Source: Nitrospira sp. (GTDB lineage: Bacteria > Nitrospirota > Nitrospiria > Nitrospirales > Nitrospiraceae). Taken from it: a stretch of 34,980 bases of DNA. The notes beneath the pieces are model-generated. The model worked only from the letters and a program-made list of their open reading frames with translations. It searched no databases and was not told the origin of the DNA. Of the stretch, positions 27,644 through 34,980 are shown piece after piece. The DNA lies in the NCBI GenBank assembly GCA_005116885.1, contig SWDP01000036.1, positions 1 to 34,980 of the forward strand. The letters run 5' to 3'. Both the position numbers and the translations under genes were made by a program. The stretch's first letter is position 1; the number at the start of each line of letters is the position of its first letter.

Positions 27644-28783
27644 TCAGTCCTCCTCTTTGCTCACGACCTCCCGCGGAGACTTGTTATGCGTATAATTTTT
27701 TAGCTCATTTAACAGTGCGGCATCGGCCTCTCGAACTTTCTGCGTGGTTTTGCTATCGAAGCAATCGGCAATTGCCTTAAAGCGGTCGTGTTTCCGCGTA
27801 AGATAAATGCTCGCTTCAACTCCGTCATAGAGCAAATGATAAAGTTTGACACAGGGTAGCCCAGTATAGCGAAAGTAATACGAAGGGTTCTTGCTGCGCG
27901 TTGATTTATGGATGGTCCTTCCAGGTAATCCAAGATCCACTAAATGGCGCATGAGGTGTTCAATGAAATCCCTGGAGCCACTCACAAAACTCGCGCAAGG
28001 CTTGCGCGTGTTGTTGCCCTCCCAATAAACCGAGCCATCCCCGTCCCAGCAGCCTCGAATGAAATGTCTCAAAAACTCCGGCGGAATTTCAGGAAACTGT
28101 AGCGTGATACTTTTGCTTGGCGTGAGTCCCAATCGTAGGAGGTCGGCGTATATCTCCGCGTTGTCAATGCGGAAGTGATACAGCGCACCCGCTATTCCTC
28201 TTTTTGCTGAGAACCCTAACCTCGCATTGCTATTTAGGAGGGCTATGACCTTCTCTAGAAGTTCAGGTTCCTTCTGACCTACAGTGACACGAAACTTGAT
28301 GGGGCCAATCGGTTTAACGAGACATCCATCCGTATAGATGACACCAAGCACATAGGCCATCGCAAACGTCCACGACTTGAAAAACGACTCATTGACATGC
28401 CGTCTCTCGTGACTGATTGCTTTGCCAGGGGAATAAACGTTGGAACTGTACGAAATCTTACCCTGCTCCAGGGCAAGATTCCTCGCTTCGGTCAGCGTCC
28501 TGCGCACAATCTTATGTTGCACCAGGAGTTTGTGGATGTATTGACGAGTGCAGTTGAATTGACGTGCTATGTCGTTGAGTGATAGGCCGGATTTGTACTT
28601 CTGCTCTAAATCTTCTTTAGTAATAGAAATTGAGAGATGGCGTCCTACTCTCCGCGTGACGTGCGACTTGTGCCGCTTCTCCGCAGCAGCATCGTAACAG
28701 GATGCGCAGAGTCCTCTGGCTTTGTGATTATGTTCCTGGGTACCACAGGACTTACATCTATTGTGGCCTTTTGCCCAGCTCAT
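27644..28783 (-). CDS. Free-standing LAGLIDADG-type homing endonuclease-like protein with zinc finger and HTH
   Basis: A 379-residue protein (ATG 28783; a GTG 3 bp upstream is possible). Residues about 10-29 hold two CxxC pairs (CKSC and CASC), a treble-clef-type zinc finger. SLNDIARQFNCTRQYIHKLL (about 68-87) is a helix-turn-helix. Two LAGLIDADG-like helices follow, AYVLGVIYTDG (about 143-153) and HFIRGCWDGDG (about 240-250), each ending in the acidic residue that binds the metal. Both acidic positions are kept, so it may be active. No intron or intein surrounds it. It could be a homing endonuclease that moves itself, or a host-adopted regulator of the WhiA kind. It sits among repeats. Confidence 0.83.
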   Translation of the reverse strand: MSWAKGHNRCKSCGTQEHNHKARGLCASCYDAAAEKRHKSHVTRRVGRHLSISITKEDLEQKYKSGLSLNDIARQFNCTRQYIHKLLVQHKIVRRTLTEARNLALEQGKISYSSNVYSPGKAISHERRHVNESFFKSWTFAMAYVLGVIYTDGCLVKPIGPIKFRVTVGQKEPELLEKVIALLNSNARLGFSAKRGIAGALYHFRIDNAEIYADLLRLGLTPSKSITLQFPEIPPEFLRHFIRGCWDGDGSVYWEGNNTRKPCASFVSGSRDFIEHLMRHLVDLGLPGRTIHKSTRSKNPSYYFRYTGLPCVKLYHLLYDGVEASIYLTRKHDRFKAIADCFDSKTTQKVREADAALLNELKNYTHNKSPREVVSKEED

Positions 28784-28879
28784 CACTGCCTAAGTTCAGT
28801 GGTACGTGGCAACACAATGCATAGGGAAGCAACAGAATGGACGAATCGAGAAGGGCATGGGAGTCTCGCAACGAGGCCG

Positions 28880-30002: not shown

Positions 30003-30480
30003 CTATCGATACACTTCGTCGTGGCTTCCGATATCGAACGGGACAATTTCCTTCTTGGTGACACGAAATGTCAGGGTGAGGCCGTAGGCATGGGTGACAC
30101 TCACGGCATGAAGCCCTTCTAGCAGGCTGCGGAAAAACTCAGTTTCTGCTCAAACTTCGCTGTGACCTTGCGAGTAATGATGTTGCAAGAACGGATTCCA
30201 GGATGCTCAAAATGGCCGTCCAGCGCGGCCGAAGCGAGCGAAGAGGCGAGGCCTACGCTTCGGTACATTGAGCTTCTGAGCGATGCGAGAACAAAGCTGG
30301 CGGACTTTTTCAGCATCCTGCTAGTTCTCCGTTGAGCGAATGCAATCGAAGGGACGAGAGAAAGGGGTTGGCTTCGAGATGTCTCAGCGCCTTGGCGAGG
30401 GGCTTTTTGAGTTCCGGGTGGGCTCGCGTAACCTTGACGACGCGCCGATCAAAATGGCCGGTCGTCAGCAGCACATACAT
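30003..30480 (-). pseudogene. RelE-type toxin gene split by a 198-bp insertion
   Basis: The 5' part (30480-30321) begins MYVLLTTGHFDRRVVKVTR, with HPELKKPLAKALRHLEANP after it, and the 3' part (30118-30003) encodes LHAVSVTHAYGLTLTFRV and ends IGSHDEVYR. These are the two halves of a RelE/YafQ-like mRNA interferase. Between them is a 198-bp element flanked by CTAG on both sides. Removing the element and one CTAG joins the halves in frame into 91 codons plus stop (160 + 116 bases). As it stands the frame stops within the element after ELAGC. The ATG overlaps the antitoxin stop as TGATG. The toxin is therefore probably inactive. Confidence 0.85.
30123..30320. mobile_element. MITE-like non-autonomous element with CTAG target duplication (family-1, copy C)
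   Basis: The 198-bp element is bounded by CAGGCTGCGGAAAAACTC and, read inward from the other side, CAGGATGCTGAAAAAGTC, which match at 15 of 18 positions as terminal inverted repeats. CTAG is present at 30119-30122 and 30321-30324. It has no coding capacity. The part 30199-30320 is the family-1 unit also seen at 24,651-24,777. A CTAG duplication fits the YTAR target known for the IS5 group, but the source transposase is not in the window. Confidence 0.82.
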
Positions 30481-30767
30481 CAGGCATCGAGACCCAGTTC
30501 GCCGATCAACGTCTGCGCCGTCACACGGCGCACTCGCCCTGCTTTCACATCTTTCAACGACCGGCGAATTCGTGAGATATACGACCGGCGATAGCGATCA
30601 GATAACTCGCGGAACTGATCTTCAGCCATGATCACATAGACCGGTTCGTTGTCCTTGAGGACATGCACTGGCCCACGTTTCAGGGCCTTGTCCACCGCTG
30701 AAAACCCGCGACGTCTGATCTCAGTGGCCGGTATGGTTCTTCGTGCTGCTGCGCTCGTGGTTCGCAT
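30480..30767 (-). CDS. Antitoxin of the disrupted toxin-antitoxin pair (Phd/YefM-like)
   Basis: A 95-residue protein. TIPATEIRRRGFSAVDKAL near the N-terminus and PVHVLKDNEPVYVIMAEDQF (about 33-52) show the strand-loop pattern of Phd/YefM-type antitoxins. The C-terminal KAGRVRRVTAQTLIGELG would bind the toxin. Its stop overlaps the toxin start by one base. The gene is intact although the toxin is not, so it may survive as an orphan regulator or as an anti-addiction factor against related toxins. Confidence 0.78.
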   Translation of the reverse strand: MRTTSAAARRTIPATEIRRRGFSAVDKALKRGPVHVLKDNEPVYVIMAEDQFRELSDRYRRSYISRIRRSLKDVKAGRVRRVTAQTLIGELGLDA

Positions 30768-31458: not shown

Positions 31459-31494
31459 AAAAGACTGGCTCGGCTTAGTCGAGCCAGTCTTTTT
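31459..31494. terminator. Bidirectional intrinsic terminator between the membrane protein gene and top6A
   Basis: A 14-bp perfect stem, AAAAGACTGGCTCG (31459-31472) with CGAGCCAGTCTTTT (31480-31493), and a 7-base loop. T-runs are present on both exits (five T on plus, four on minus). The right arm encodes the last residues of Top6A, and its stop codon sits in the loop. Confidence 0.88.
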
Positions 31495-32581
31495 CTTTGA
31501 GTTTCCGTGGAAGATATTTTTTGGTGAGGTACTGGAAGTCTTTGTTGGCAAGGGCGTCTAGTTCGTACTTGAGTCCGCTCGCGAGCATCCGCTTGATTTC
31601 AACCTGCCACGCCGGTTTCTGGAACCACTGATAGTTGAGGAGTTCCTTTGCGCGGGCGATGTCCTTCTCGTTCAATTTGATCCCGACGTTACGAGGAAGT
31701 TCGTATCGTTCAGGGTCGGCGCTGGACAGGCCGATGAACTTGGCTTTGGGAATCGCCATCCGCTGGCTCTCAAAGGCCAGATTAATTGAGCCTTGCTTCA
31801 CAACAGAATAGATATAGTACCCCCAGGGATCGTTATCGACCAGGACATAGACTGGAAGTGTATATTCCTCGTGTAGTCGCCTGGCCAAACGGCGCACCCC
31901 ACGAGGCGGTTGCCCATTGCCCGTCAAGAGTACACAGTTATATCGGCGCCAGAATTTATCTTCCGAGAGGCGATTCCACTGTGTACCTTTCTCGACCAAT
32001 AACACGAAGTCAGCCGTACAGCGGCGGATCTCCACATACTCCGGCTCGACAATCGACGGAACCGAGTACCCGCCTTTTCCCAGCTTGGCGCAATCCACAC
32101 GATCCCCGTCGTCACCGAGCACCAGCGGACCGACGACACTTCCTCCATTTTCTGCGCGTACATGCAACTCTTCACGCAGTGCCGTGAGCGACACTTCCAG
32201 ATCTTCGATAATCGGGTCCGATTCGTCCTGGGTGTCGAAGGTATTCTCGTGCGAGTCCTGAATGGTGTGTTTCGTCCGGTAATAAATCTCTCTGAGCGAC
32301 GTCGTCAACTCTGCACGCTGCAATTCGGAGAGGGCATCCGCGACCAACATCGTCTGCATGAACTTCTTGGCCATGCCGACATTGAAAAATGAACGGGCCT
32401 GTTTCTTCCCCCCCATTTCGAGCAAACCCTTGCGCGCATTAAAGGTCACGTTCGAGAGCGCGCGAATCGGGATGGCCATCGTCGGATCTTTTAAACGCTG
32501 CGCGGACGCGATCACCATATCGGCCAGCCCGACTAATTTTTTCTCAACAACCCCGTTCTTTGTGATTTTTGTTTTTGCCAT
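31475..32581 (-). CDS. top6A: DNA topoisomerase VI subunit A (Spo11-like)
   Basis: A 368-residue protein of the usual Top6A length. SLREIYYRTKH (95-105) is the winged-helix catalytic motif, with Tyr101 the likely nucleophile that forms the 5'-phosphotyrosyl link. The Toprim domain shows LLVEKGTQWNRL with Glu197 and VLVDNDPWGYYIY with Asp249 and Asp251, the metal-binding residues. Top6A works as an A2B2 tetramer with subunit B to relax supercoils and separate linked duplexes by double-strand passage. The gene starts 8 bp after the top6B stop. All catalytic residues are kept, so an active enzyme is expected. Confidence 0.94.
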   Translation of the reverse strand: MAKTKITKNGVVEKKLVGLADMVIASAQRLKDPTMAIPIRALSNVTFNARKGLLEMGGKKQARSFFNVGMAKKFMQTMLVADALSELQRAELTTSLREIYYRTKHTIQDSHENTFDTQDESDPIIEDLEVSLTALREELHVRAENGGSVVGPLVLGDDGDRVDCAKLGKGGYSVPSIVEPEYVEIRRCTADFVLLVEKGTQWNRLSEDKFWRRYNCVLLTGNGQPPRGVRRLARRLHEEYTLPVYVLVDNDPWGYYIYSVVKQGSINLAFESQRMAIPKAKFIGLSSADPERYELPRNVGIKLNEKDIARAKELLNYQWFQKPAWQVEIKRMLASGLKYELDALANKDFQYLTKKYLPRKLKEKDWLD

Positions 32582-32589
32582 GCGTCGTC

Positions 32590-34599
32590 CTACTTTTTCT
32601 TCCTTGCCTGGGGGACCTTGCGACCGGTACGAACTGCGCCTGTCTGTTGCTGTGCCAGCGCACCTTTTTTACGAGTCGATCGGACGGTTGCGACCATGCG
32701 TGGCCTTTTCTTCTCAGACGGTGTCTTTGCAGTGTGTCGTGGTTCAGGTGTAGGGGAAGCCGGCTGCTCCTCGATTGCTATGTCATCGGAAACAGGAGCC
32801 GCCAATGGAGCCTCTCCTTCGATACCTTCCGCTGTGACAATAATGGAATGCGGCAGGCCCTCAGGCCCGGCGCCGGTCTTGCCGAGTGTTTCATCGGTCT
32901 TCATGCCGCCGGTCCGTGACGATGCAATCTTCTGCAACTGCGCTTTCAATTTTTCGACGGACAGCTTCCCACCCTTTAACCTGTTACAGGCTTCGGCGAC
33001 TTCTTCGATATAAAGTTCGAAAATATTGCGCCGTCGGAATTCGCTCGCTGCTCGCTCGCGACGTCGCAGGAAGAGCCCAAGCCGACGCCCGCACTCGCGA
33101 AGCGCGAGGGTAATCTCTTTATGGATCTCGTCGTACTCCGCGATCGCCTCTTTCGATTCGCTCGTAAAGGGCACCCAGACGGAAGCAATGTGCACGAAGA
33201 TAGCCATCGGACCTGCGGGAAGAGCCCCGCGTGATTGGCTCATTCCATAATTGCGCCAGGTTGTCGCCAGCACCGCCTTGAAAATAGCGCAAGCAGACTG
33301 CTGGTAGAGCAGCGGCACCCGGTTGGCATAGCGAATCACGCGCGCGAGTTCTGAATCTCCTTCTTCCTGCTCCCCTTCTGCCAATGGCATCGTCGGCTTC
33401 TCAGGTTTGGTCTCGCTATCCGGGGATTTTCCAAAAGCCAGTCCTGCTTCAATAATGAAGGGGTTGCCGCGATAGACGGAGGGAGGCCTGCTCACCGCCG
33501 TATAGAATTCTCCTTTGATCTGTTTATAGAGACCTGAGAGGATGGCCTTTTCGCCGATCGGGGAGAGGCAATTGGTCGGCGGCGCCATGATCTTTGTCGC
33601 TTGAATCGTGCGATAGAGCGTTTCGGCTGTCGCACCGCGAATGTCGCGAGGCTTCGCGCTGGGCGAAACCTTCGCCATCTTACACATCTCATCCGCAAGC
33701 GGAGGCGTCACCCGGCAGAAATCGCTCGACAGAAATCCCGAAAGGGTCTGGCTCTTGGCCTCATGGAGCATCTTGAGGAACATCCCGAATTCGATGCCGT
33801 AGGGATGAGGTTTGATTTCCTTCGGCGATGGCGGCAATTCATGATAGGCGCGAGGATATTCCTTCGTCTCCCCATCCGGCGATCGATAGATGAGCCTCAC
33901 ATGCGCGTTGGCAATTGACGTCTGCTCGAGATACTCATCCACCGACGCGCGACCCTTCTGGTAACGGCCTTCGACTTCAATCGCCACCTGTGTGCCACGC
34001 GGCTGGTCCCATTCGATCTGTTTGTTCTCATGGACCAGGGGTTCGTTCTTCTTGGTATCGATCTGCACCTCGAAATAATGGGCCGACGCCTTGGGGCCGA
34101 TACGCGTAATAATCTTCACCGGTTTGCCGGTCGTCAGTTGGCCATACATCCCTGCCGCCGAAATGCCGATCCCCTGCTGACCGCGACTCATGCGCAAGCG
34201 ATGGAACTTGGAGCCGTATAACAGTTTTGCAAAGATTTTCGGAATCTGCTGGCGGACGATCCCGGGGCCATTATCTGTGACCGTCACTCGGAAGCGCGTG
34301 GCCTGACTTGCAGAGAGCTTTGCTGCCGATCCAATAGCCACAACTTCCAGCTGAACCGTCACCTCAGGAAGAATCCCAGCCTCCTCGCAGGCATCCAGGG
34401 CGTTATCGACCGCTTCTTTGACGCAAGTCAGCAACGCTTTGCGTGGGTTGTCAAAACCGAGTAGATGCCGATTCTTGGTGAAGAATTCGGAGACGGAAAT
34501 CTCGCGCTGCCGCGCGCCCATTTCTACCGCCGTCACTGCCGAAGCTGCACGGGGGGTTGTATTCTTGGACGTGGATGCAAGTGACTTGTGCGTGCTCAT
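32590..34599 (-). CDS. top6B: DNA topoisomerase VI subunit B
   Basis: A 669-residue ATPase subunit. The GHKL fold shows EAVDNALDA (62-70, with Glu62 and Asn66), VTDNGPGI (107-114) and SRGQQGIGISAAGMYGQL (138-155), in Top6B order. Residues about 230-310 are the helix-two-turns-helix domain and about 310-530 the transducer. The last 130 residues are a low-complexity tail rich in Lys, Arg, Pro and Ala (TPSEKKRPR, ARKKK), longer than in archaeal enzymes of about 530 residues and probably a DNA-binding tail. The start ATG 34599 follows GGAGAAG. It is cotranscribed with top6A, and a probable 6S RNA gene lies upstream. Confidence 0.94.
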   Translation of the reverse strand: MSTHKSLASTSKNTTPRAASAVTAVEMGARQREISVSEFFTKNRHLLGFDNPRKALLTCVKEAVDNALDACEEAGILPEVTVQLEVVAIGSAAKLSASQATRFRVTVTDNGPGIVRQQIPKIFAKLLYGSKFHRLRMSRGQQGIGISAAGMYGQLTTGKPVKIITRIGPKASAHYFEVQIDTKKNEPLVHENKQIEWDQPRGTQVAIEVEGRYQKGRASVDEYLEQTSIANAHVRLIYRSPDGETKEYPRAYHELPPSPKEIKPHPYGIEFGMFLKMLHEAKSQTLSGFLSSDFCRVTPPLADEMCKMAKVSPSAKPRDIRGATAETLYRTIQATKIMAPPTNCLSPIGEKAILSGLYKQIKGEFYTAVSRPPSVYRGNPFIIEAGLAFGKSPDSETKPEKPTMPLAEGEQEEGDSELARVIRYANRVPLLYQQSACAIFKAVLATTWRNYGMSQSRGALPAGPMAIFVHIASVWVPFTSESKEAIAEYDEIHKEITLALRECGRRLGLFLRRRERAASEFRRRNIFELYIEEVAEACNRLKGGKLSVEKLKAQLQKIASSRTGGMKTDETLGKTGAGPEGLPHSIIVTAEGIEGEAPLAAPVSDDIAIEEQPASPTPEPRHTAKTPSEKKRPRMVATVRSTRKKGALAQQQTGAVRTGRKVPQARKKK

Positions 34600-34772
34600 T
34601 CATCTTCTCCAGTCAGGTGACCACACCGGACAGCTTCAGCACATCATCATTGCCATCTCGAACGATGGAGATGACACAGCGAACCTCTTCACGGTTGTGA
34701 GAGGAGCGGAACGGCACATGGCGGGGTGGTGAAACGGGGAAAACCGCCAACCGGAATGAGCGGGCAATTAGG

Positions 34773-34924
34773 GTGGGAGGAGCGCGCACCTACCGAGGAC
34801 AGCATAGGTACGACGGAGATCTTGGCAGGACTTTAGGCTTCCCGGTCAAGCCGGGCTTGCACACCATCCCGACGCTCGATCCCCTTATGAACCATATTCC
34901 CTCGGGGCGTTAAGCTCCCCCCAC
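34773..34924 (-). ncRNA. ssrS: Probable 6S RNA
   Basis: Read on the minus strand from 34924, an 11-bp closing stem GTGGGGGGAGC (34924-34914) pairs with GCTCCTCCCAC (34783-34773) with one G-U. CCGAGG pairs with CCTCGG further in. A large central open region follows, and a small apical hairpin CCCGG-CTTGA-CCGGG (34855-34841) is followed by GAAGCCTAAA. The apical part GGTGTGCAAGC, hairpin, GAAGCCTAAA resembles the Escherichia coli 6S RNA block GGTGAGCATGC, hairpin, GAAGCCTTAAA. About 152 nt, within the bacterial range. 6S RNA mimics an open promoter and holds the sigma-70 holoenzyme in stationary phase. A good promoter lies directly upstream. There is no open frame of note inside. Confidence 0.8.
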
Positions 34925-34930
34925 AGAGAT

Positions 34931-34959
34931 ACGATATTCTTCCGATGCGAGCGAGTCAA
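34931..34959 (-). promoter_or_regulatory. Sigma-70 type promoter of the 6S RNA gene
   Basis: On the minus strand TTGACT (34959-34954), a 17-bp spacer and TATCGT (34936-34931), placing the start at about 34,924, the first base of the closing stem. Transcripts that read through would continue into top6B-top6A; between 34,600 and 34,772 I see neither a clear terminator nor another convincing promoter. Confidence 0.68.
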
Positions 34960-34980
34960 GGATTGACTCACTATGCATGG

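Follow-up and report, generated by a model that had tools for sequence, protein, structure and literature searches.

The window, i.e., the whole stretch of 34980 nt of Nitrospira sp. DNA that was analysed, carries near its right end a predicted 6S RNA gene, followed on the same strand by the genes of both subunits of DNA topoisomerase VI (Table 1). The gene top6B is the first one downstream of 6S, with a gap of about 171 nt, and its closest named relatives were found in Nitrospira genomes. Topoisomerase VI occurs sporadically in bacteria and is known in N. moscoviensis (PMC11302465). A preliminary description had placed a 6S RNA gene at 34773–34959 without giving its strand; these limits, set by the -35 element on one side and the far end of the closing stem on the other, proved accurate, and the gene lies on the minus strand. 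Note that a run of about 98 N begins just past the window end at 34980 (L001, from 1667), representing an assembly gap or a masked stretch, and because of it the sequence ahead of the 6S promoter is not fully readable. Elsewhere in the window, a 380-aa frame (27644–28786, minus strand) reads by eye like a homing endonuclease, and two short neighbouring frames (30310–30767, minus strand) read, also by eye, like a Phd/YefM antitoxin and a RelE-type partner.

Table 1. Features of the 6S RNA locus and of the adjacent topoisomerase VI genes, with the basis of each assignment.
Feature	Position	Strand	Basis
-35 element TTGACT of the 6S promoter	34954-34959	minus	consensus scan, conservation in relatives
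-10 element TATCGT of the 6S promoter	34931-34936	minus	consensus scan, conservation in relatives
Predicted 6S RNA (type A), ~152 nt	34773-34924	minus	RF00013, full-length R1 match, structure support
Closing stem, 5' arm GUGGGGGGAGC	34914-34924	minus	fold, comparative helix 1
Helix P2, 5' strand; predicted product-RNA template	34899-34909	minus	helices 2 and 3
Central bubble, 5' side AAUAUGGUUCAUAA	34885-34898	minus	fold, comparison with E. coli ssrS
Apical arm with conserved GGUGUGCAAGCCCGGCUUG...GGGAAGCCUAAA block	34815-34884	minus	RF00013, helices 4-6
Alternative hairpin CGUACCUA/UAGGUGCG, would form when product RNA occupies the 5' strand	34785-34812	minus	constrained folds
Helix P2, 3' strand	34787-34799	minus	constrained folds, comparative structure
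Closing stem, 3' arm GCUCCUCCCAC	34773-34783	minus	fold, comparative structure
top6B, DNA topoisomerase VI subunit B	32590-34599	minus	NCBIfam NF003218 (661 bits), TIGR01052 (510 bits)
top6A, topoisomerase VI subunit A	31475-32581	minus	NCBIfam NF003333 (574 bits)

The default Rfam scan of the window returned tRNA only, and a permissive threshold was used beyond it. The RF00013 match anticipated in the preliminary description was found at 34815–34884 (40.3 bits, E-value 6.4e-7); it covers only the apical arm, where a block like that of E. coli 6S had been pointed out, lies under the curated gathering score of 46.4 and is the only one in the genome. At an E-value of 0.001 or better, 145 of the 175 Nitrospiraceae genomes match this family but only 7 of the 175 pass the cut-off, so the low score is a property of the lineage and not of this copy. 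The copy in the complete genome of Nitrospira moscoviensis is likewise under the cut-off (40.4 bits). The gathering score is a curation threshold and not a biological feature, and the 6S gene was missed by default annotation because its score falls just below it. Among the other families listed for the order, none gave an RF00013 match.

A covariance model (R1) was built from an alignment of 49 distinct relatives (A2). It took the place of a search with a strict regular expression of the apical motif, which reached near relatives only. R1 covers the window copy end to end (34770–34926, 166.5 bits) and has matches in 150/175 Nitrospiraceae genomes, although its scores on relatives are high partly by construction, since the model was built from them. 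Independent tests of the 6S identity are RF00013, loci outside the alignment and the match to E. coli ssrS, which was recovered end to end by R1 (37.5 bits, E-value 1.2e-8) and also by the model R2 (43.0 bits, E-value 5.7e-10). R2 gave weaker candidates elsewhere in the phylum. R1 and R2 are only roughly calibrated, and the family counts depend on incomplete assemblies. By following weak second matches, a second, divergent 6S (type B) was found in relatives, in addition to the type represented in the window (type A). The alignment A2 holds two type B sequences, L013 and L027, so R1 and the covariation counts given below derive from 47 sequences of type A and two of type B.

Folding of the window sequence alone gave a z-score of only -1.5, with 16 of 200 shuffles folding at least as well, and single-sequence folding was dropped as a proof of 6S identity. 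The structure itself is a rod with a closing stem, a large central bubble and an apical arm. In the 49 distinct relatives, 95.8% of cells form standard pairs under this structure vs. 42–58% in controls with partners slid by 1–3 columns, two-sided compensatory changes occur in 12 pairs vs. 4–6, and the covariation is 0.179 vs. 0.035–0.080. The clearest compensatory case is an apical-stem pair that is A-U in 31 sequences and G-C in the other 18, and helices 2 and 3 (P2) are paired in 98.5–98.8% of cells. Compensatory changes back the closing stem, the central bubble and the apical arm, and this comparative evidence strongly supports the fold.

The promoter, which had been called good in that description, consists of TTGACT-N17-TATCGT, with the 17-nt spacer lying between 34954 and 34936, and the predicted start of the 6S RNA is at about 34924. 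It is the sole sigma-70-like site found by consensus scan in 34500–34980, where 0.2 are expected by shuffling. The best site in each of 68 distinct upstream regions combines, with few exceptions, TTGACT and either TATCGT or a hexamer close to it, and the spacer is 17 nt in 47 and 18 nt in 20 of them. The distance from the promoter to the closing stem is 6–8 nt in relatives, and the remaining upstream sequence varies freely. With a promoter of its own, the element appears to be an independent small RNA gene. No T-run follows the 3' arm of the closing stem, and no intrinsic terminator was found downstream of the window's 6S. At least five T within 8 bases after the end were found in only 5/70 type A tails vs. 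27/31 for type B.

In other bacteria, 6S RNA is a small RNA that turns RNA polymerase down in hard times. The Nitrospira RNA would be transcribed from its own sigma-70-type promoter and would fold into a long hairpin, the central bubble of which would mimic an open promoter. We infer that the RNA binds the holoenzyme of RNA polymerase with the housekeeping sigma factor and keeps it inactive under nutrient depletion. Once conditions improve, the 5' strand of the bubble would be transcribed by the polymerase, probably from U34896. This putative counterpart of E. coli U44 was assigned because the bubble matches that of E. coli around U44, the strand GAGGGAAUAUGGUUCAUAAG resembling E. coli GAGCCGAUAUUUCAUACC. 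The predicted type A product RNA (AUUCCCUCGGGGCG...) would begin with AUUCCCUCGG. Its synthesis would open P2, and the P2 3' strand and the 3' side of the bubble would then form a hairpin leading to release of the RNA, as in E. coli. Constrained folding is consistent with this step: with the P2 5' strand held unpaired, every type A sequence tried forms this hairpin, and its 8 core pairs are paired in 97.4% of cells. The hairpin shows little covariation; the 3' strand of the hairpin is at the same time a pairing partner in P2, and this would constrain its variation. A 9-bp hairpin of this kind is described as a major part of release for 6S RNA of E. coli and other gamma-proteobacteria (PMC8876501). 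In these models, the capacity to refold on uptake of the 5' strand is conserved and E. coli-like.

According to the family counts among the 175 Nitrospiraceae genomes, 138 contain type A, about 98 contain type B and 87 contain both; in the assembly of the window (3.19 Mb, 84% complete), no type B was seen. The type B sequences (L147, L150, L151, L155–L161, L162–L192) have the closing stem GAGCGGAGG/CCUCCGCUC, usually followed by the T-run mentioned above, they mostly carry an intrinsic terminator of their own, and their product RNA is predicted to begin with GUUCCUCUC. The predicted start base is U in type A (A2) and C in type B (A7). A script called C in 30 of 31 type B rows, and the one uncalled row reads C by eye (GGTACA). 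In A2, T was called in 44/49 rows, another three were left uncalled but show T on visual inspection (GGAATG), and the remaining two, L013 and L027, have C. The U/C split invites a test, since the product RNA of Bacillus subtilis 6S-1 starts at C40 with GTP (PMC8876501), but this is speculation.

In L169, L171 and apparently L182, type B stands upstream of a frame on the same strand, which in L169 and L171 resembles, by its translation, a small heat-shock protein of the Hsp20 kind. Elsewhere, the neighbours of type B include proteins that look CBS-domain-like or universal-stress-like. One contig (G136:C27) carries two type A copies, at 365–521 and 51431–51587 (151.8 and 169 bits), and the second is near Pal-like and lipoprotein-like genes, not top6B. 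No 6S match was found in the smallest well-assembled Nitrospiraceae genomes (G082, G161, G173 and G133; 1.7–2.0 Mb), of which G082 and G173 kept top6B; loss of 6S with genome reduction is possible.

The position directly upstream of top6BA, noted in the preliminary description, is real and widespread. Comparison of the R1 and Top6B positions revealed 6S on the same contig for 120 of the 147 Top6B rows in the family, and in 120/120 of these cases 6S lies upstream of top6B on the same strand, although the 120 cases are not independent events because the genomes are related. The gap is below 700 nt in 77 cases, 763 nt in one, 1.5–8 kb in 41 and 13 kb in one. In most of the nitrite-oxidising relatives in the Nitrospira group, 6S shortly precedes the genes of topoisomerase VI. 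Almost all gaps above 1.5 kb (41/42) belong to genus g16, with many near 3.15 kb; the genes within them are on the same strand in two sampled examples, and a third also has an opposite-strand gene. In L142 and L143, the gap of about 3.15 kb holds a same-strand frame of about 765–800 aa that reads like a WD40-type protein, and in L142 and L144 a short proline-rich protein precedes this WD40-like frame. Type A is kept in G135, G147, G148, G151 and G008, where no Top6B match was found, and top6B was found without a same-contig 6S in g2, g3, g9, g10, g13, g18 and g21. The 6S-top6B interval itself, unlike the promoter, is not conserved among relatives, and no conserved top6B promoter was found in it (promoter-like sites in 6/43 intervals, 2.7 expected).

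That the likeness to 6S is accidental, or that the element is a repeat or an attenuation hairpin with no relation to 6S, might be suspected from the GC-rich sequence, the modest single-sequence z-score and the Rfam score under the cut-off. This reading is contradicted by the comparative data, namely the family-wide conservation, the covariation and the reciprocal E. coli match, together with the uniqueness of the RF00013 match in the genome, and it is hardly credible. Another conceivable reading is that the hairpin acts chiefly as an attenuator or 5' leader for top6BA, in which case the long transcript would be the functional unit and the structure would control topoisomerase VI expression. 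The invariable order and strand in the same-contig cases, the lack of a terminator after the element and the lack of a conserved second promoter in the interval would agree with a leader. However, the element resembles 6S down to fine details, and the interval is not conserved. Some genomes without a top6B match retain type A, and 6S and top6B are 1.5–8 kb apart in 41 cases, with an opposite-strand gene between them in one sampled; a leader is very unlikely.

A different question is whether 6S and top6BA form one operon of the ssrS/ygfA kind, with read-through past a Rho-type stop and topoisomerase VI tracking 6S transcription, which would add to the 6S identity and not replace it. The parallel with ssrS and ygfA drawn in the preliminary description is a fair one, as fau (ygfA) is downstream of ssrS in E. 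coli, and the layout here likewise shows the same strand, close spacing and no intrinsic terminator between the genes. Rho-dependent termination at E. coli ssrS is reported by Chae et al. (2011; cited in PMC10670590). Strand and order are conserved over seven genera, T-rich ends are rare in type A compared with type B, and promoter-like sites in the intervals are few; since no intrinsic terminator follows 6S, some transcripts may run on into top6BA. Nevertheless, a top6B promoter may have escaped the consensus scans, the order of the genes may merely have been inherited, and there are insertions and separations in g16 as well as groups with top6B but no same-contig 6S. Genes inserted between the two, and genomes that have retained 6S but not top6B, argue against an obligate connection. 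An operon is possible but rather doubtful.

Taken with the Rfam match, the conserved full-length structure, the conserved promoter and the mutual recognition with E. coli ssrS, the 6S identity given in the preliminary description is upheld: the stretch is supported, by comparative sequence analysis, as a real, unannotated 6S RNA gene of about 150 nt and a new member of a known family. Very probably it encodes the housekeeping 6S RNA of its host, a member of the Nitrospira group, for which the mechanism of polymerase holding and release described above is proposed. Since Nitrospira live by oxidising nitrite, grow slowly and probably face starvation often, an RNA that holds the polymerase could be important for their survival and restart. 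The two-type 6S complement and the steady topoisomerase VI neighbourhood pose concrete, testable questions. It might be imagined that Nitrospira couples the polymerase brake to DNA topology, read-through from 6S making topoisomerase VI, and that the second 6S of the relatives, with a product RNA started with GTP and not ATP, senses a different nucleotide on leaving starvation; we regard this combined scheme as improbable. A literature search found no paper on 6S RNA in Nitrospira; a broad 2014 survey of 6S RNA lay outside this search, and an earlier prediction is possible.

Among known systems, the RF00013 family differs from the window copy in that the match is limited to the apical arm and is under the cut-off. 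The 6S and 6S2 RNAs of Legionella (PMC3048289) are likewise a case of a second, divergent 6S copy in a Gram-negative bacterium, but the Rfam model LPR10 overlaps the window element only weakly (29.8 bits vs. a cut-off of 69). This overlap arises from the same apical block, and membership in LPR10 was rejected. The Ms1 RNA of actinobacteria also has a 6S-like fold, but its binding partner is core polymerase and not the holoenzyme with sigma (PMC9130861). Bacillus subtilis, with 6S-1 and 6S-2, has two 6S paralogues per genome, as do the 87/175 genomes with types A and B. At the place matching C40 of 6S-1, type B has C and type A has U. The product RNA of B. subtilis 6S-2 starts with ATP. In contrast to B. 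subtilis, the assembly of the window shows type A only, and type A refolds in the E. coli manner. The E. coli 6S RNA (SsrS) is longer (183 nt vs. about 152 nt) and is followed by fau/ygfA instead of top6B. Both RNAs have a closing stem, a central bubble and an apical arm with the GUGxGCAxGC...GGGAAGCCU block, and they share a sigma-70-type promoter, a 3' hairpin on refolding and a protein gene downstream on the same strand.
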